A stretch of DNA of 64,000 nucleotides from the NCBI GenBank assembly GCA_017439305.1, contig JAFSJK010000018.1, positions 1-64,000 of the forward strand, written 5' to 3'. Below are positions 50,926 to 62,900 of this stretch, one piece after another. The notes beneath the pieces were generated by a model. The model was not told where the DNA came from, ran no database searches, and saw only the letters and a list, made by a program, of their open reading frames with translations. How positions within the stretch are numbered: the stretch's first letter is position 1; the number at the start of each line of letters is the position of its first letter. Made by a program: the position numbers and the translations under genes. Source of the stretch: Bacteroidales bacterium (GTDB lineage: Bacteria > Bacteroidota > Bacteroidia > Bacteroidales > UBA932).

Positions 50926-52088
50926 TGGATTCAAACGAAAATGTAAGATATGACTGCTTCCGCGGGTGCGTGATCAGCGGAAATGAGGAGACGGGGATGG
51001 AGGAGATCCGCTACCGCCAGGGTTGCTGCAAGTTGGAGGTGTACGACTACCTCAAGGGCATCGGCCAGGAGCAGTTCGGCAACCTCTTCGAGGTCCGTTT
51101 CAAGAATACCCGCAAAGGCATCTATGTCAATGCCTCCGGCCAGAGCATCAAGACCGGCGACCTGGTTGTCGTTGAGGCGCAGACGGGCCACGATCTGGGC
51201 ATCGTGACCCTGGAAGGGCCGATCGTCGCGCGCCAGATGAAGTGCAAGGGCATCGACCCGGAAAAGACGGTCTTCAAGAAGATTTACCGGAAGGCGAAGC
51301 CTTTCGACATCGAACGCTGGCAGGACGCCATCGCCCGCGAGCAGGAAACGATGATCCGCTCCCGCGTGCTGGCCGCCAACCTGGGCCTGGAGATGAAGAT
51401 CGGCGACGTGGAATTCCAGGGGGACGGTACGAAGGCCATTTTCTATTATATCGCCGATGGCCGCGTGGATTTCCGGCAACTGATCAAGGATTTCGCCGAG
51501 GAGTTCCATATTCGCGTGGAAATGAAGCAGATCGGCGCCCGTCAGGAAGCGGGCCTCATCGGCGGCCTGGGTATCTGTGGGCGTGAACTGTGCTGCGCCA
51601 ATTACATCACGGAGTTCAAGTCCATCACGACCTCCGCGGCCCGGGTGCAGGACCTTTCCCTGAACCCGCAGAAATTGGCCGGCCAGTGCGGCAAGCTCAA
51701 GTGCTGCCTGAACTATGAGGTCTCGGCCTACATGGATGCCCACACCCGGATTCCGAAAGTGACGGAACCGCTTGAGTTCGAGGACGGTCTGGCTTACCTT
51801 GTGAAGACGGACATCCTCCGTGAGACGATGTATTTCTCCTATGAGAAAGGCTCCCTGGCAAAAATGTACCCGCTTCCGGCCTCCGAAGTGCGCGAAATCA
51901 TCATGATGAACCGCAACGGCCAGAAACCGGAAACGCTTCTTCCCGATGTGGAGCCGGCCGCCCCGGAATTCGTCTCCGCCGTCGGTGACGACAGCATCTC
52001 CCGCTTCGACGAGGCGCGCAAGAAAAAGCACCGGAACAAGTCTGGGAACCGGAATCGAAAGAATAACAAACCTAGGAAAGATGCGTAG
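50922..52088 (+). CDS. ricT: PSP1-domain regulatory protein RicT
   Basis: The 388-residue protein contains the PSP1 core: GNLFEVRFKNTRKGIYVNAS, then IGARQEAGLIGGLGICGREL followed by CCANYI, and KLAGQCGKLKCCLNYE. The Cys pairs bind an iron-sulfur centre in the RicT/YaaT family, which affects RNA processing and competence in Bacillus. A basic Lys/Arg/Asn tail (KKKHRNKSGNRNRKNNK) ends it. Start ATG 50922 overlaps the holB stop. Its TAG stop (52086-52088) lies inside the left arm of palindromic element copy 1, and its 3' end overlaps gldH by 8 bases. Confidence 0.92.
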   Translation: MMDSNENVRYDCFRGCVISGNEETGMEEIRYRQGCCKLEVYDYLKGIGQEQFGNLFEVRFKNTRKGIYVNASGQSIKTGDLVVVEAQTGHDLGIVTLEGPIVARQMKCKGIDPEKTVFKKIYRKAKPFDIERWQDAIAREQETMIRSRVLAANLGLEMKIGDVEFQGDGTKAIFYYIADGRVDFRQLIKDFAEEFHIRVEMKQIGARQEAGLIGGLGICGRELCCANYITEFKSITTSAARVQDLSLNPQKLAGQCGKLKCCLNYEVSAYMDAHTRIPKVTEPLEFEDGLAYLVKTDILRETMYFSYEKGSLAKMYPLPASEVREIIMMNRNGQKPETLLPDVEPAAPEFVSAVGDDSISRFDEARKKKHRNKSGNRNRKNNKPRKDA

Positions 52089-52611
52089 ATCGGGTATGAC
52101 TTCCACAAACCGTCGCTCCGCGACCCCTCCCATCAAAGATGGGCCCCTCCCTCTTATGCGCCCGAGGGTGGGCACAGGTTTGTGGAAGTCATACCCGATC
52201 TACATCGTGCTATTGATAATCTTAGTGTCGGGTTGCAAGGAACCGATGTCGGTGGAGAGGTTTGTGAAAGGGGAGGGACCGTATACGTTCTTCGTCGATC
52301 TGAGTGACAGTACGGCTACCTATGATTTTGAATTCTATACACGGGTGGATGCGCCGCTGGATTCCCTGCGGAAGTTGTCGGCCCTGCCGCTCCAGGTGAC
52401 TTGGACCTCTCCTTCTTTCCATGTTTTCCGGGAGGAAGTGTATATGCCCCTGGAGGGCAGGACTACCTTCTTCTCCCGGGAAGTCCGGGCTCCCTACCGG
52501 GCGGATATCCAGCCGGTGGAACCGGGACCCTGGACGCTGATGGTCCGGGCGGAAGATCTTCCGGAAGGATTCTGCGGACTGGGGTTGGTCGTCAAACGGA
52601 ATCGACAGTAA
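52081..52611 (+). CDS. gldH: Gliding motility lipoprotein GldH with element-derived N-terminus
   Basis: The 176-residue product is GldH-like: lipobox LIILVSGC (Cys 52), then VERFVKGEGPYTFFVDLSDS and DFEFYTRVDAPLDSLRKLS. GldH is a periplasmic lipoprotein of the gliding/type IX-linked set, though it also occurs in non-gliding Bacteroidales. Residues 2-41 come entirely from palindromic element copy 1, including NRRSATPPIKDGPLPLMRP, giving an abnormally long n-region before the hydrophobic stretch. ATG 52081 has AGGAAAG ahead of it; ATG 52156 inside the element would give a normal-length signal (MRPRVGTGLWKSYPIYIVLL). Confidence 0.8.
   Translation: MRRSGMTSTNRRSATPPIKDGPLPLMRPRVGTGLWKSYPIYIVLLIILVSGCKEPMSVERFVKGEGPYTFFVDLSDSTATYDFEFYTRVDAPLDSLRKLSALPLQVTWTSPSFHVFREEVYMPLEGRTTFFSREVRAPYRADIQPVEPGPWTLMVRAEDLPEGFCGLGLVVKRNRQ
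52085..52203 (+). repeat. In-frame palindromic element, copy 1 (gldH)
   Basis: The 119-base element has perfect 27-base inverted arms (52085-52111 and 52177-52203) around a 65-base core. The core holds three hairpins: GTCGC-TCC-GCGAC (52112-52124), CCCATC-AAA-GATGGG (52129-52143) and GCCC-GAGGGT-GGGC (52160-52173). It contains the ricT stop codon and encodes gldH residues 2-41. No flanking direct repeat or own gene is visible. Confidence 0.9.
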
Positions 52612-53552
52612 TGGGACACGGTAAACTCAGGAAATTTGCGGAGAACGAGACTTTCCGCTGCCTGCTGCAACCGGATGCGGCCTCGGTCCTGGCCAAGCCG
52701 GAAGGTTCGAAGGAATTGATTCTCAGGGACCATGCCATCAAGGGCCGGTGGAATGCCGAGATGTTCGCGAAGCCCCAGCCCATCGTCGTGGAACTGGGCT
52801 GCGGCAAAGGGGATTACACCATCGCCCTGGCCCGCCGGCATCCGGAAATGAATTTCATCGGCGTGGACATCAAGGGTGCCCGGCTGTGGAAAGGGGCCAA
52901 GGAAGCGACGGAGGACGCGCTCGGGAACGTGGCCTTCCTCCGTACGCGCATCGAGTTCATCGACGCCTTTTTCGGGCCCTCCGAGGTTTCCGAAATCTGG
53001 CTCACCTTCTCCGACCCCCAGCTCCGCGGCAGCGAGAACGCCCGCCTCACCTCTCCGCTCTTCCTGCAGCGCTACAGCCGTTTCCTGGCCCCCGGCGGCA
53101 TCGTCCATCTGAAGACGGATTCCCGTTTCCTGTACGAATACACCCAGTCTGTCATCCGCGCCAATGATTTGCAGGTCCTGGCATCGGGAACGGATATATA
53201 CAGCGAGGGAGTTCGGACAGGGGTGACTCTTGAAAACCGTCGCTCCGCGACCCCTCCCATCAAAGATGGGCCCCTCCCTCTTATGCGGCCGAGGGTGGCC
53301 ACAGGTTTTCAAGAGTCACCCCTGTCCGATAATGTCGAATGGGATATCGAGTCAGTGTTCGAGGTGCAGACTTTCTATGAGAGTATGTTCCTGAAGATGG
53401 GGCTGCCCATTACCTATCTGGCGTTCCGGCTGGACCGGGCAGACCTTCCGGCGGGGGCGCCGTTCGCGTATCCGACGGATTTTGATGCGACTTACTGGCG
53501 CGAGGCGGAGGGACCGCGCCGGTCGTTCTCCCATCAGCCGACGAAAGGATAG
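52611..53552 (+). CDS. trmB: tRNA (guanine-N7)-methyltransferase with element-derived insert
   Basis: The 313-residue enzyme makes m7G46 in tRNA. SAM motif VVELGCGKGDYTIALARRHP near 60, FIGVDIKGARLWKG near 83 and EIWLTFSDPQLRG near 128 are typical TrmB. Residues about 201-240 are encoded by palindromic element copy 2 and contain NRRSATPPIKDGPLPLMRP, as in GldH. The family C-terminus resumes after it (DIESVFEVQTFYESMFLKMG). Insertion falls in the loop before the last conserved helix, so the fold may survive. The start shares a base with the gldH stop. Confidence 0.9.
   Translation: MGHGKLRKFAENETFRCLLQPDAASVLAKPEGSKELILRDHAIKGRWNAEMFAKPQPIVVELGCGKGDYTIALARRHPEMNFIGVDIKGARLWKGAKEATEDALGNVAFLRTRIEFIDAFFGPSEVSEIWLTFSDPQLRGSENARLTSPLFLQRYSRFLAPGGIVHLKTDSRFLYEYTQSVIRANDLQVLASGTDIYSEGVRTGVTLENRRSATPPIKDGPLPLMRPRVATGFQESPLSDNVEWDIESVFEVQTFYESMFLKMGLPITYLAFRLDRADLPAGAPFAYPTDFDATYWREAEGPRRSFSHQPTKG
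53213..53329 (+). repeat. In-frame palindromic element, copy 2 (trmB)
   Basis: The 117-base element (exactly 39 codons) has perfect 26-base inverted arms (53213-53238 and 53304-53329) and a 65-base core matching copy 1 at 63 of 65 positions. The two differences (53288 G for C, 53299 C for G) are partners in the third hairpin stem. The arms differ from copy 1 except for the inner AAACC/GGTTT and a TGACT block. It is in the same orientation and reading frame as copy 1. Confidence 0.92.
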
Positions 53553-56463: not shown

Positions 56464-59400
56464 ATGAAGAACGCTTTCAAAAGCCTTCTGCTCGCTTTCT
56501 GCATGATGATAGCGGGCACTGCCGCCTTTGCCCAGGTGACGACCGCCTCCCTCGGCGGCCGCATCGTGGACAACAAGGGCGAAACCATCATCGGCGCCGC
56601 CGTCATTGCGACCCACGTCCCTTCCGGAACGACCTATGGCGCCGTCACCAACATGGACGGGCGCTACATCATCAACGGTATGCGTGCGGGTGGTCCCTAT
56701 ACCATTGAGATTTCCAATCTCGGTTACCAGAGCGTCCGGTTCACGGATGTCACCCTGCAGCTCGGTGAAGCTTTCACGCTGGATGCCTGGCTCGAAGAGC
56801 AGACAGAGTCCCTTTCCGAATCCGTCGTCGTTGCCGACGCGTCCCGCTTCCGCCGGGAGCGTAACGGTGCCGCCACGAACATCGGCCGCCTGACCCTGGA
56901 AAACATCCCGACCGTGTCCCGCAGCATGAATGACGTGATGGCTCTCACGCCGCAGGCTTCCACCACCACGAGCGGTTTCGCCGTGGGCGGCGGTACCTAT
57001 CGCGGCTCCTCCGTCACCGTGGACGGTGCGGCTTTCAACAACGCCTTCGGTATCGGTTCCAACCTGCCGGCCGGCGGCAGCCCGATCTCCCTGGATGCCA
57101 TCGAGCAGATGTCCATCAACATCACTCCGTTCGACGTGCGTCAGAGCGGCTTCCAGGGCGGTGCCATCAACGCCGTTACGAAGTCCGGTACCAATGAGTT
57201 CCATGCCAGCGTGTATGACTACTATTCCAACGAGCAGTTCCGTGGTACGGAGGTGGGCGACGAGACGGTGAGCCGTTCCAAGTCCCTGAACCATACCATC
57301 GGCGCCACCGTCGGCGGTCCCATCATCAAGAACAAGCTCTTCTTCTTTGTCAACGGCGAGTATTCCTTCGATACCGTTCCCGGTTCCAGCAGCGTGGCCC
57401 GTATCAGCGGGACCGAAAAGTGGGGGAGCGATGTTCCCGCCAACTTCCCGACCGTTGCCCAGATGGACATGATGAAGAAGTTCCTTTCCGACAAGTTCGG
57501 ATATGATCCGGGCCGCTACCAGGGCTATTCCCTGGAGACCCCGGACTGGAAGGTCCTGGCCCGTCTGGACTGGAACATCAACGACAGCAACCGTCTGAAT
57601 GTCCGGTTCAGCCACACGCACAACTACTACTCTTCCTCTCCTTCTTCCTCCATGTCTCCCGTTGGCGGAACCAACAGCAAGTTCACGAGCCCTTCCGGCG
57701 ATGCGATTTCCTTCAACCGCTATTCCGCCGGCCGTCAGGCTGCTTCCGCTCTCTATTATGAGGCTGCCCGTTATTATCAGGAGCAGAATTTCACCTCCGT
57801 CGCTGCCGAACTCAACTCCCGCATCGGAAATGGCAACAACATGCTTCGCGTTGCCTATTCCCATCAGTTCGAGCCCCGTTCCTACGTGGGCGATTTCTTC
57901 CCGACCGTGGACATCCTTGCCAAGGACAATGCCGCCGGTACCGACACGCATGCCATCATGACTACCATCGGCATCGACCCGTTCACTTACGGTAACCTCC
58001 GCGACGTCCGGACTGTCACCGCTACCGACGAGTTCTCCTTCAATGCGGGTATCCACAACTTCATCACCGGTGCCCAGTTCGAGTGGAACCGTGCCGTCAA
58101 CGGCTTCATGCAGGGCGGTGCCGGCTGGTTCATCTATGACAGTTGGGATGCTTTCAAGAAGGATGTGGAAACCGGAGAGTCCCAGGCTTCCGCCTTCATG
58201 ATCACCCACGCCAACCTGGATGATCCCACGGCCCAGGCTTTCCCGGCCTTCGACTACACCCAGGTTTCCGTGTATGCCCAGGACGAGATGAACTTCTCCC
58301 CGTATTTCAAGCTGACTGCCGGCCTCCGTCTGGAAATGCCCATCATTTCCATCCCGACCGACAATGAGAACAAGGAATTCACTTCCCTGGGAGTCAACAA
58401 CCCGAACTCTTCTTTCGCCGGTCTCAAGACCTCCGACGTGCCGGCCGCCCGGGTGAGCGTTTCCCCGCGCCTCGGCTTCAACTGGGATGTCCTTCACGAC
58501 CGTACGTTCACGGTCCGTGGCGGTACCGGAATCTTTACCGGCCGTATCCCGAACGTGTGGCTGGTTTCCGCCATCGGTAACTCCAACGTCCTTCAGTATC
58601 AGCACATTGTGAAGAAAGCCGGCGAAGGTATCCCGGCATTCTCAAAAGACCGCGCCGAAATCATCAACCGGATTTGGAACGGTGGTTTCAAGAAGGCCGA
58701 CCTGGCTGCTCCGACCGCGACGACCATCCTGGCGAAAGACCTGAAGATGCCTTCCAGCTGGAAGAGCTCCCTTGGCCTGGATTACGTGCTGCCCGGTGGC
58801 TTCAAGGCTACGCTCGAGGGTATCTACAGCACGAATTTCAACGAAGTCTACGCTTCTCCGCTCGGTTATAAGCAGGAAGGAACCATTCAGCTTCCCGGTG
58901 AGCCTGCCGCCCGTAACGTCTGGGTTCTCGAGGGTGTGAAGAACAGTGGCGGACGCGACGTAAACGGCTACTATGCCCACAATATCTCCAACCTGCGCGG
59001 AAACTACTGGTCTTTGACGGCCCAGCTTTCCAAGTCCTTCTCCTGGGGCCTCGACCTGATGGCCGCCTATACCCGCAGCGATGCCAAGTCCGTTTCCGAC
59101 GGTAACGGCGACCAGATTTCCGAGTTCGCGAACACTTATTGCCTGAACGGCTCCAACGAGCCTGTCCTCGGCCGGGCTTACTATGTGGCTCCGCACCGTG
59201 CCATCGCCAACGCGTCCTGGACCATCCAGGAGGGCAACCATGGCGCCTCCAAGGTCAGCGCTTTCTATGAGGGCTACAACATCGGCTTCATCAGCAGCTA
59301 TTCCTATTCCCGTGTCTCCTATCTGATGAGCAATGTCAGCGGCGGCACCGGAGCTTCCCAGCTGGTCTACATCCCGACCGCCGCGGAATTGAAATCCATG

Positions 59401-59903: not shown

Positions 59904-62900
59904 ATGAAAAAATCCCTTAAAAGCCTTGTGCTTGCGTGCATTGCTTTGTTCGCAGGCATCGCTGCCTCCGCCCAGGTGACCACTTCGTCCCTCGGCGGCC
60001 GTGTGGTGGACCAGAACGGGGAGCCGGTGATCGGTGCCGCCGTCGTGGCCATCCACGAGCCTTCAGGCACATCCTATGGCTCCATCACCAACGCGGACGG
60101 CCTGTATACCATCCAGGGTATGCGTACCGGCGGCCCGTACCGGGTCGAGGTTTCCTGCCTGGGCTACCAGCAGGTGAACTACACCGACGTGACCCTGTCC
60201 CTGGCCGAGACCTTCAACCTGAACGCGCAGCTTCCGGAGTCCTCCGAGTTCCTTTCGGAAGCCGTCGTCATCGCGGCGCCCACCTCCAAGTTCGCGGCCG
60301 TCGAGAAGACCGGTGCCTCCACCAACATCTCCTCCCGCCAGATGATCGAGATGCCTACCATCAGCCGGAGCTTCTCCGACATGGCCAAGCTCTCGCCTTA
60401 CGGAGGTAACGGGATGAACTTCTCCGGCAGCTCCGGACGTTCCACCAACTTCACCGTGGACGGTGCCAACGTGAACAACAACTTCGGTCTCTCCACGGCC
60501 CTGCCGGGCGGCGGCAACCCCATCTCCATCGACGCGATCGAGGAAATGCAAGTCGTCGTATCCCCGTATGACGTCCGCCAGTCCAACTTCATCGGCGGCG
60601 GTATCAACGCCATCACCAAGTCCGGTACCAACACCTTCAAGGGTACGGCCTATGTCTATTACCAGAACGAGAACATGCACGGCAACCGGATTGACGGCGT
60701 CGACCTTGAACGTACCCCGGAGAGCCAGACCACGTACGGCTTCACCCTGGGCGGACCGATCATCAAGAACAAACTGTTCTTCTTCGTCAACGCCGAACGC
60801 ACCCCGAGCCCTTCTGAAATCATCAAGTGGCGTCCTTCCCAGGACGGTGTCGAGGACGAGACCCGCATGATCACCCGTGTCCGGGAGTCCGAGGCCCAGC
60901 AGATGAAGGACTTCCTCATCAAGAACTACAACTACGATCCGGGTTCCTACAACAACTACAACAAGGACCAGGGCAACCTGAAGCTCCTCGCCCGCATTGA
61001 CTGGAACATCAACCGGAATCACAAGCTGGCCCTCCGGTACAACTATACGAAAAACAACAAATGGAACGCTCCGTCCACGTCCCGTGACGTGTCCGACATG
61101 AGCTTCGGCATGGCGTCCAAGTACGGCCTGGTCTTCTCCAACTCGCTGTACAACCAGATGAACAATCTCTGGACCGTCTCCGCCGACCTCAACAGCCGTT
61201 TCGGCGACCGCGTTTCGAACCAGCTTCTCGTCACCTATTCCGACATCCAGGATGTCCGCGGCAACGACGGCGGTTTCTTCCCGTTCGTGGAAATCCTCGC
61301 CGGCGACCTGGGTTCCGACTATGCCAACGAGCCTTACATGGACTTCGGTACTGAACTCTTCACCTACCGTAACAAGGTGCAGAACACCGTCCTGAACATC
61401 AAGGACGACGTTACCATGTACTTCGGTTCCCACAAGGTGATGGCAGGTGCCACCGTCGAGGCCCAGATGGCGCTCAACACCTACATGCGTAACGGTACCG
61501 GCATGTTCCGGTTCGCCAGCATGAGCGATTTCATGTCGGGCCACGCCCCGATCGAGATGGCTTTCGACTGGGGCTTCGATGGGGATGAGAATCCTTCCGC
61601 CAAGGTGCGTTTCGCCCAGGTCGGCGCTTACGTCCAGGACGAATGGACCGTAAACGACCGCTTCAAGCTCACCGCCGGCCTCCGTCTGGACAACCTGTCC
61701 TTCAACAACAAGGACGTCATGACGAACAACGAGACCTATAAGCTCGATTTCGGCGGACGCCACGTGGACACCGGCAAGTGGCCCAAACCCAGCATCCAGG
61801 TGAGCCCCCGACTGGGCTTCTCCTGGGATGTCTTCGGCGACAAGAGCCTGAAGTTCCGCGGCGGTACCGGACTCTTCTCCGGTCGTATTCCGCTGGTGTT
61901 CTTCACCAACATGCCTACCAACGCCGGTATCGTGAAGGGCCGTATGACCCGGATGAAGGATCCTGCTATCCTGAGCCAGATGATGCCGGGCGGCCATCTC
62001 GTGACCGACCGTTGGGACATCCTCAACATCCTCAACGGCATTGACGCGGCCAAGTACCCGACCACTATCACCCCGGAGACGGCTCCCGCTCCGAGCGAAG
62101 TCGCCGGCGTGGACTACAACTTCAAGATGCCCCAGGTGTGGAAGAGTTCCCTGGCCGTCGACTATGCCTTCCCGTTCGACTTCCCGCTGACCATCAGCGC
62201 CGAGTATATCTTCAACAAGACCATCAACGGCGTGATGCTCACCAATTACAACATCCCGGAGGACAATGCGGGCTGGGTCACCTTCAATGGGGCCGACAAC
62301 CGTCACATCTATCCTTCCGACTATCGGTACACCACGAAGGACGCCTACGTGCTCACCAACACGAACAAGGGCTGGGGCTCCATCACCACGGTCTCCCTGA
62401 ACGCCCAGCCGCTGCAGAACCTCAGCATCACGGCGGCCTACACGCACACCGTGAGCAAGGAAGTGACCGGCATGCCGGGCTCCAACGCCTCCGCCGCCTG
62501 GAAGTATATCCCTTCCGTGGACGGTCCCAACTATAACATCCTCCACAACTCCTCCTACAACCTGCCCGACCGGCTCATGGCCTCCGTCGCCTACACCGAC
62601 GCTGCGCACAACCACTGGAGCCTGTTCTATGAGGGCCTCCGCTATTCGGGCAACAGTTACGTCTATGCCAACGACATCAACGGAGACGGCAACGCCTATG
62701 ACCTGATGTACATCCCGAAGGACAAGAGCGAGATCCGCTTCATCGACGATGAAAGCGCCAAGGCCTACTGGGCTTTCGCGGACCAGGACAAGTATCTGAG
62801 GACGCACGCCGGCCAGTATGCCGAGGCCTACGCCGTGAACCAGCCGATGCGCCATGTGTTCGACTTCCGCTTCGCCCATGATTTCATCGTGAAGGTGGGC

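Follow-up and report, generated by a model that had tools for sequence, protein, structure and literature searches.

A dispersed, hairpin-forming palindromic element of Bacteroidales with locus-specific paired arms and copies in frame inside protein genes

Two copies of a short palindromic element are located in adjacent protein genes of the window, that is, the whole 64,000-nucleotide stretch analyzed here (positions 1 to 64,000 of contig JAFSJK010000018.1 of a Bacteroidales bacterium, assembly GCA_017439305.1). They belong to a dispersed family in which a conserved core, enclosed by inverted arms, is found between genes and also in frame inside unrelated proteins. A reading made from the window sequence alone (the sequence-only reading) had recognized the two copies; the locus-specific arms that change in step, the pseudoknotted multi-hairpin core on the opposite strand, the inversion of the core and the likeness of cores within one genome go beyond it. 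On balance, we consider it probable that this is a non-autonomous and probably selfish hairpin resembling both repetitive extragenic palindromic (REP) sequences and Rickettsia palindromic elements (RPE), in which the arms would be copied onto each other and the core flipped by template switching, and in which cores would be homogenized within genomes.

A dispersed family with a branched core

The two window copies are linked by a direct repeat of 75 nt (52107-52181 and 53234-53308, 97% identity) with a spacing of 1,127 bases. Within it, an inner core of 65 nt, identical at 63 positions and bounded by AAACC and GGTTT, is framed by inverted arms made of these ends and the sequence beyond them, which are 27 nt long in copy 1 (52085-52111 and 52177-52203) and 26 nt long in copy 2 (53213-53238 and 53304-53329), both 100% complementary. 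The difference between the two cores amounts to one compensated pair (two bases), and beyond the five-base ends copy 1 and copy 2 have arms of unlike sequence. Two core pieces of 18-20 nt, allowing up to three mismatches, each match twice in the window, against 0.02 and 0.04 matches expected from shuffles, and the element folds at -78.8 kcal/mol (z = -10.3). As the sequence-only reading had stated, the core is open in all three forward and in two of the three reverse frames; the peptide NRRSATPPIKDGPLPLMRP is common to both host open reading frames (ORFs).

The same reading had proposed a family dispersed in the Bacteroidales lineage, and had named the finding of only these two copies as what would speak against it. 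A covariance model identified 18 copies in the genome of origin (2.99 Mb, 90 contigs) and at least one copy in 21 of 25 genus genomes, the highest count in a single genome being 33. Of 119 family genomes drawn evenly, 39 had matches, which fall in 12 of 25 genera, and the model found no copies in 16 genomes that belong to other families of the order. A scan for exact patterns across GTDB species genomes gave at least 119 stretches, and those listed are titled Bacteroidales, Bacteroidia or Candidatus Coprenecus. NCBI assigns Coprenecus to the Rikenellaceae, whereas the GTDB family of the element-bearing genomes is UBA932, with Cryptobacteroides as the likely genus. No exact core match was present in viral contigs. 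The assembled set comprises 201 copies, including one without the H1 motif described below (L218) that is probably spurious; the element measures 88-224 nt (median 125) with a core of about 60-110 nt, and its copy number and sites differ between species.

The structure is best read on the strand that we call R, which reads ACCTGTGGCCACCC...GGGAGGGG...GGTT and is the minus strand in the window. In alignment A1, comprising 55 of 81 non-redundant copies, R folds into three hairpins on a stem of 20-30 bp (26 bp as aligned) with a loop pseudoknot: H1 with the loop ACCCTC, H2 with CCC...GGG and a very variable interior, and H3 with GTCGC/GCGAC and its variants. In this alignment, 97.0% of 2,607 cells are paired, against 38-48% in slid controls, and changes on both sides are observed in 35 of 49 pairs, a value reached in 0 of 500 shuffles. 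All 26 stem pairs show two-sided changes. Because the 55 copies were chosen for having arms, the informative part of the stem is the variety of its pairs and not the pairing itself, and the independent evidence for the fold lies in this variety and in the core hairpins. The pentamers of the pseudoknot are fully complementary in 197 of 201 copies (CCCTC/GAGGG in 191, CCCGT/ACGGG in 4 and CCCAC/GTGGG in 2), and we read the H1 loop and GAGGG as a predicted pseudoknot with covariation, the rare types of which may represent few events.

The arms were also assessed around 197 distinct canonical cores with full flanks, using left flanks swapped between copies as the control (n=588). An enclosing stem with a score of at least 14 was found for 158 of the 197 cores and 1 of the 588 swapped combinations, and a score of at least 10 for 184 and 24, respectively. 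It should be noted that the copy finder behind the arm-pairing sets kept only core matches with a stem score of at least 10, and that pairing in those sets is partly a matter of selection. Near-identical cores carry unrelated arms at different loci, and among 51 copies the arms share a weak consensus, which stops about 22 nt out. Conserved terminal inverted repeats, as expected of a miniature inverted-repeat transposable element (MITE), are not observed, as arms differ between most copies, no search for a related full-length transposon having been made; the exceptions are the metagenome-assembled genome (MAG) RGIG4900, discussed below, and a subfamily in genome G016.

Two variants of this build were observed. 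In the G016 subfamily (loci L083-L095) the arms are common to the copies and lie within longer GC-rich repeats, unlike the locus-specific arms found elsewhere. The core of locus L104 in G019 is enlarged by a hairpin-rich insert of about 50 nt that the orthologous locus L288 lacks.

Paired arms, core inversion and likeness of cores within genomes

We compared 38 site pairs in which both genomes carry a copy. Fourteen of them were picked for similar arms, and since three of these are comparisons among the same three genomes, the counts were repeated on 11 non-overlapping pairs. The 14 pairs (358 arm pairs) contain 60 double changes, 56 of them Watson-Crick in both genomes, and 19 single changes, where 13.5 double changes would be expected if the two arms changed independently; the 11 pairs (280 arm pairs) contain 41 double and 14 single changes, with 8.2 double changes expected. 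Transversions account for 21 of the 38 Watson-Crick double changes in the 11 pairs and for 26 of 53 in 13 pairs, with runs of adjacent changes. In one of the comparisons (L265/L280, flanks 89-90% identical) both arm sets are perfect, and the indels between them are, by eye, mirrored on both sides. A transversion has no G.T intermediate to pass through, and copying of one arm onto the other fits these data as a whole better than step-by-step compensation. Homogenization of arms and inversion of spacers at inverted repeats are both ascribed to template switching (passages in PMC8604942).

Strong covariation and a pseudoknot would also be expected of a structured RNA that serves the cell as a regulator, terminator or stabilizer and is kept by compensatory selection at each locus, an explanation to which the tolerance of G.T on R and the locations at gene ends lend some weight. 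The arm mismatches argue otherwise. Read on R in the 162 of 201 copies with arms of at least 18 nt, the arm pairs comprise 4,039 Watson-Crick, 85 G.T, 20 A.C and 62 other pairs. Inside genes, the ratio of G.T to A.C is 16:2 where R is antisense to the host gene and 11:3 where it is sense; it is 17:2 and 15:3 in same-strand gaps, and convergent gaps (7:6) are the sole even class. As the copies are mutually related, binomial p-values for these counts are optimistic. The orientation of the host gene does not reverse the bias, so that the asymmetry is a property of the element and not of the host mRNA, and we read it as selection or processing of single-stranded R at the DNA level. The RNA explanation is further opposed by the 21 of 38 double changes in non-overlapping pairs that are transversions, without a wobble intermediate, and by the variation of copy number and sites between species. 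No Rfam family fits either: a search with nine loci gave no match at the gathering score, the best hit (E = 0.031) being far below its own gathering score. Taken together, we regard a functional RNA as quite improbable. Covariation is usually taken to prove a functional RNA, and this family suggests that it may arise at the DNA level, because the pairing bias stays with one strand of the element regardless of the direction of transcription.

The core is inverted relative to its flanks in 10 of the 38 site pairs. In two of these, L003/L113 and L009/L253, the arms are still 80-90% alike, and the core was therefore flipped in place; for the other eight, independent insertion is possible.

Cores also group by genome. 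In 19 orthologous pairs, namely those where one genome has many copies, the core is closer to a paralogue of the same genome in 14, to the orthologue in 4 and tied in 1, a comparison that pits the best of several paralogues against one orthologue and to that extent favors the paralogues. For the arms of the same pairs, the orthologue is the closer match in 13 and the paralogue in 3, with 3 ties, paralogue arm identity being taken over the first 20 nt only. Copy 1 of the window is an example: its core matches that of copy 2 at 63 of 65 positions, and copy 1 is 89% identical to its orthologue in RUG13040. Homogenization of cores could proceed by short conversion or by re-insertion at resident sites, two routes that these data do not separate.

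Genomic sites, movement and the candidate mobilizer

Placement by simple codon-usage gene calls covered 170 of the 201 copies (those with arms of at least 13 nt and flanks of at least 400 nt). One hundred of these are intergenic, 11 lie over gene ends and 59 are inside an ORF, 42 of the latter with a clear codon signal on both sides. The sequence-only reading had named a mostly intergenic and out-of-frame distribution as evidence against its view; the first half of this holds, yet the intra-ORF copies are numerous, so that in-frame insertion in conserved proteins is common here without being the usual location. Likewise, the shared orientation and frame that it reported hold for the two window copies and are not a rule across the family. 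Intergenic copies lie between co-directional genes (36 + 31), in convergent gaps (24), in divergent gaps (7) or next to a single neighbor (2).

Host genes include those for a tRNA pseudouridine synthase (TruA), MurB, an ABC ATPase, an alanine-racemase-type protein, a class-III aminotransferase and an FAD synthetase/riboflavin kinase, in which the element lies between the two domains, together with TrmB, DapF, RsmH, YgiQ and an AroB assignment below its cut-off. The element is thus found in frame inside unrelated genes whose domains resume after the insert (42 of 170 copies), as in the RPE to which the sequence-only reading had likened it.

Within the genus, the loop of TrmB is a hot spot for insertions (window 53213-53329; loci L049, L050, L057, L060 and L061). 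A different subfamily of the element occupies the same TrmB position in G019, and G005, G006, G010 and G017 have other extra stretches in this loop, with peptides such as ...NSVISTERRE... and ...SSPVISSEAEGGVEKS..., which suggests that other palindromic families are inserted there as well.

Empty sites were found in the genome of a relative, G003. In trmB, the window genome reads EG-VRTG-[insert]-DNVEWD where G003 reads QG-IQAG-DELEWD, and the sites at the lipoprotein start, in an NTP transferase (LLGSEPFL), at the end of a gene that we read from its sequence as tsaE-like, and in two gene gaps are also empty. Insertion into pre-existing palindromes was considered and rejected for the trmB, lipoprotein, tsaE-like and NTP-transferase sites, as none is seen there in G003. 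At two further G003 loci the picture is different: L161, orthologous to the murB copy L012 of the window genome, has a short palindrome in place of a full copy, which may be a scar or deletion remnant left after loss of the core, and L157, orthologous to the truA copy L009 of the window genome, carries a different palindrome (TTCCCGG...CCGGGAA and more).

At the tsaE-like site, host sequence extends through the outer 7 nt of one arm (6 of 7 as in empty G003), and the complement of these nucleotides on the other side is new, which suggests that stems also grow outward into host DNA. The same finding, together with the near-identical cores that carry unrelated arms and an agreement of two residues (SE) with the empty NTP-transferase site, could mean that the core alone inserts and that one arm arises at insertion when 20-25 nt of host sequence are copied in inverted orientation. 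We consider this origin of the arms improbable. In MAG RGIG4900, copies at three unrelated loci have in common a unit of 137-139 bp with 96-98% identity, arms included, which shows that arms can travel; GGAATG lies directly to the right of all three and GAATG to the left of two. The weak arm consensus of 51 copies ending about 22 nt out does not fit this origin, and the empty sites account for the outer nucleotides only. Our first reading, in which inverted target duplication alone gave rise to the arms, was dropped on the evidence of the RGIG4900 arms, the 51-copy consensus and the G003 empty sites.

Direct repeats of at least 5 nt flank 12 of 170 copies, against 5.2 expected and a maximum of 11 in 50 shuffles. 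This weak excess is all that is seen of the defined target duplication expected of a MITE, and it qualifies the statement of the sequence-only reading that no target duplication is visible, which is accurate for the two window copies.

Inverted repeats are classical chimera products, and the genomes with known titles are nearly all MAGs, so that an assembly or amplification artefact of metagenome bins had to be considered. It is scarcely credible, as insertions recur at orthologous sites (for example, in trmB of G000, G019, RUG478 and RUG13040), frames are open and arms covary, and the family is present in MAGs of several series.

As for a mobilizer, genes for Y1 transposases are present in 18 of the 25 genus genomes. 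One explanation is that the element is REP DNA, or a bacterial interspersed mosaic element (BIME), in the strict sense, with arms and core together as the substrate of a REP-associated tyrosine transposase (RAYT), a Y1 enzyme that would recognize single-stranded R or its complement. The element is rich in hairpins, has many copies and is asymmetric on R; copies are fewer in divergent (7) than in convergent (24) gaps; and CGTC, one of the two REP tags according to passages in PMC3733652, occurs at the foot of hairpin H3 on the strand complementary to R, both in the alignment (48 of 55 copies) and in the full set (106 of 201). In addition, Bacteroidetes RAYTs of subclass 2.6 are described as flanked by atypical structures with copies elsewhere in the genome (passages in PMC6006769). 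Several observations fit poorly. The CGTC overlaps a 5-bp stem (GTCGC/GCGAC), whereas CGTC repeats are described with 8-9 bp stems that start with A-T pairs, and the element is several times longer than REPs, for which the same passages give 20-40 bp (PMC3733652). In 5 of 201 copies the outer 6 nt of the 5' arm contain the other REP tag, GTAG, and alignment A1 has no constant GTAG. At the examined Y1 loci, no copies flank the gene as in a REPtron, and several of these loci have other hairpins nearby. We therefore hold strict REP/RAYT membership to be possible but doubtful.

The hairpins found near some Y1 genes (L172, L173, L188, L196 and others), such as TGCTCGTAC(A/C)GGTCC and TGATCAAGGTCTCC, are probably separate REP families. 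Among the first 16 genomes, Y1 genes seemed to co-occur with the element (9 of 10 with it and 1 of 6 without, by DNA query); this pattern was weakened by nine more genomes and is not claimed.

Under the reading that we favor, strand R folds into the long stem that carries three hairpins and the loop pseudoknot. The element can move together with its arms, as a stretch of about 137-139 bp in the one genome that shows this, through a presumed enzyme supplied in trans, the likeliest class being a Y1/HUH (RAYT-like) transposase acting on single-stranded R. Resident copies would be inherited vertically, and those inside genes would persist only at positions that leave the reading frame open and in loops that can take up the additional residues. 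Because the arms would form a hairpin during replication, template switching could copy each arm onto the other and keep them complementary while they drift, might extend the stem into host DNA and would sometimes invert the core, and the cores of different copies would be homogenized by short conversion or re-insertion. Maintenance of such an element would probably be selfish. A further reading, which we think unlikely, is a two-part selfish element, in which the self-correcting, locus-anchored arms would act as a permanent dock and the pseudoknotted core as a cassette that is copied from dock to dock within a genome and flipped in place; the core would thus home without movement of the arms, driven by an enzyme that recognizes strand R.

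The following points weigh against the favored reading. Compensatory selection could be the source of part of the double changes, and recurrent insertion at the same site could replace homogenization of cores, for which the paralogue comparison is favorably built. Spacers inverted in yeast are a few bases long (passages in PMC8604942), against a core of about 60-110 nt here. Symmetric template switching accounts neither for the excess of G.T over A.C nor for that of G.T with the purine in the 5' arm over T.G on R (68 to 17), the latter seen despite a near balance of Watson-Crick pair types in 116 genome-contig copies. Thirteen of the 197 canonical cores lack a stem of score 10, and the direct-repeat signal is weak. 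Finally, of the genus genomes, 17 of the 21 that carry the element have Y1 genes, as does 1 of the 4 that lack it, which leaves four element-bearing genomes that show none, the MAGs being incomplete; no copy was present within about 1.5 kb of 30 Y1 loci scanned for core motifs, where isolated motifs of 7-10 nt were the only matches; and the hairpins at all 34 examined Y1 loci (of 56 Y1 hits) include no element.

Relation to known repeats and the two window copies

RPE were reportedly described by Ogata et al. in 2000 and 2002, work cited in PMC6649704 and PMC3733652. The present element is like them in being a palindromic repeat dispersed in several genomic copies, a short mobile DNA that is read in frame within unrelated proteins, apparently still functional, and that also lies between genes. 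It differs in its host phylum, in its branched and pseudoknotted core, and in the core inversion and within-genome core similarity observed here; the likeness is one of description, not of compared sequences. The arms of the present element are locus-specific and stay complementary, whereas Rickettsia elements are said to lose repeat identity over time (passages in PMC6649704).

Resemblance to REP, BIME and REP doublets forming hairpins (REPIN) lies in the high copy number of hairpins, their location mostly outside divergent gaps and sometimes in ORFs, and the G.T stem pairs (passages in PMC3733652), as well as in the CGTC at one hairpin foot in about half of the copies and the Y1 genes in most of the same genomes. 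In contrast to REPs, as far as those passages describe them, the median length is 125 nt (88-224) and not 20-40 bp, the CGTC sits on a 5-bp stem and is missing in many copies, the REPtron arrangement is not seen at examined loci, and the arms are locus-specific. The structures at subclass 2.6 RAYTs are comparable in phylum, in the Y1 enzyme and in being atypical with dispersed copies; they are described as flanking RAYT genes, unlike this element, which is not beside the examined Y1 loci (passages in PMC6006769). The element may nevertheless be one of those structures, in which case the family has already been glimpsed (PMC6006769).

Two further systems share single features with the element. 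Palindromes in coding genes of nematomorph mitochondria are likewise perfect inverted repeats in coding DNA, kept perfect by a process for which template switching is proposed; theirs are host coding sequence, whereas here a dispersed element lies between the arms (passages in PMC6649704). Template switching at short inverted repeats equalizes arms and flips the spacer as seen here, but the spacers are a few bases long and in yeast genes, whereas the core here is structured, measures about 60-110 nt and belongs to a mobile family (passages in PMC8604942).

The kind of element is thus already known, from protein-coding palindromic mobile DNA such as the Rickettsia elements and from REP-like hairpins, and what is new is the combination of a branched pseudoknotted core, drifting locus-specific paired arms, core flips and cores that group by genome. 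We recognized no description of this family in the open-licence papers searched. It provides another well-sampled natural case of mobile palindromes in functional proteins, this time in bacteria of the gut and rumen and not in an intracellular pathogen. About 200 copies and dozens of orthologous insertions make three questions measurable: how a palindrome stays perfect during drift, by template switching or by compensatory selection; how the copies of a short core in one genome are homogenized; and which loops of proteins can take up 30-60 additional residues.

In the window, copy 1 (52085..52203, R on the minus strand) is matched by the covariance model at 52086-52202, minus strand, with 121.3 bits (E 2.5e-25), and copy 2 (53213..53329, minus) with 125.3 bits (E 2.7e-26), both copies being training sequences of the model. 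On R, copy 1 begins with the 5' arm (52177..52203), the perfect complement of the 3' arm at 52085..52111, and the 65-nt core occupies 52112..52176. By coordinates counted from the sequence, its predicted hairpins are H1 (TGTGCCC-ACCCTC-GGGCGCA, 52157..52176), H2 (CCCATC-TTT-GATGGG, 52129..52143) and H3 (GTCGC-GGA-GCGAC, 52112..52124), all on the minus strand, and the CCCTC of the H1 loop is complementary to the GAGGG at 52149-52153. In copy 2, the arms at 53304-53329 and 53213-53238 enclose a core at 53239-53303.

Copy 1 overlaps the end of a gene with a PSP1 domain (Pfam) and the 5' end of host gene 1, which encodes a small lipoprotein (52081..52611, plus strand), the element lying before the signal peptide. 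Host gene 2, trmB (52611..53552, plus strand), carries copy 2 in frame in a loop that is variable across the genus. The sequence-only reading had placed the peptide within GldH and TrmB. Its presence in both ORFs stands, and TrmB is confirmed (NF001080, 234.8 bits against a cut-off of 132); the name GldH is not, as host gene 1 matched no Pfam family even at E<=10 and none in NCBIfam. A counterpart of host gene 1 is found at the same locus in 22 of 24 other genus genomes. It should be noted that this gene has an in-frame ATG within copy 1, at 52156, which may be the true start of the lipoprotein, the element peptide then perhaps being untranslated. Because of this ATG, TrmB is the only secure case of an internal peptide in the window. 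Both insertions are also carried, and are also open, in the relative RUG13040 (locus L290), where the region is 80-83% identical by blastn.

Elsewhere in the window, the stretches 57300-57359 and 60737-60796, 3.4 kb apart and in forward orientation, are 83% similar and accompanied by further matched pairs, and look like two paralogous genes lying side by side.

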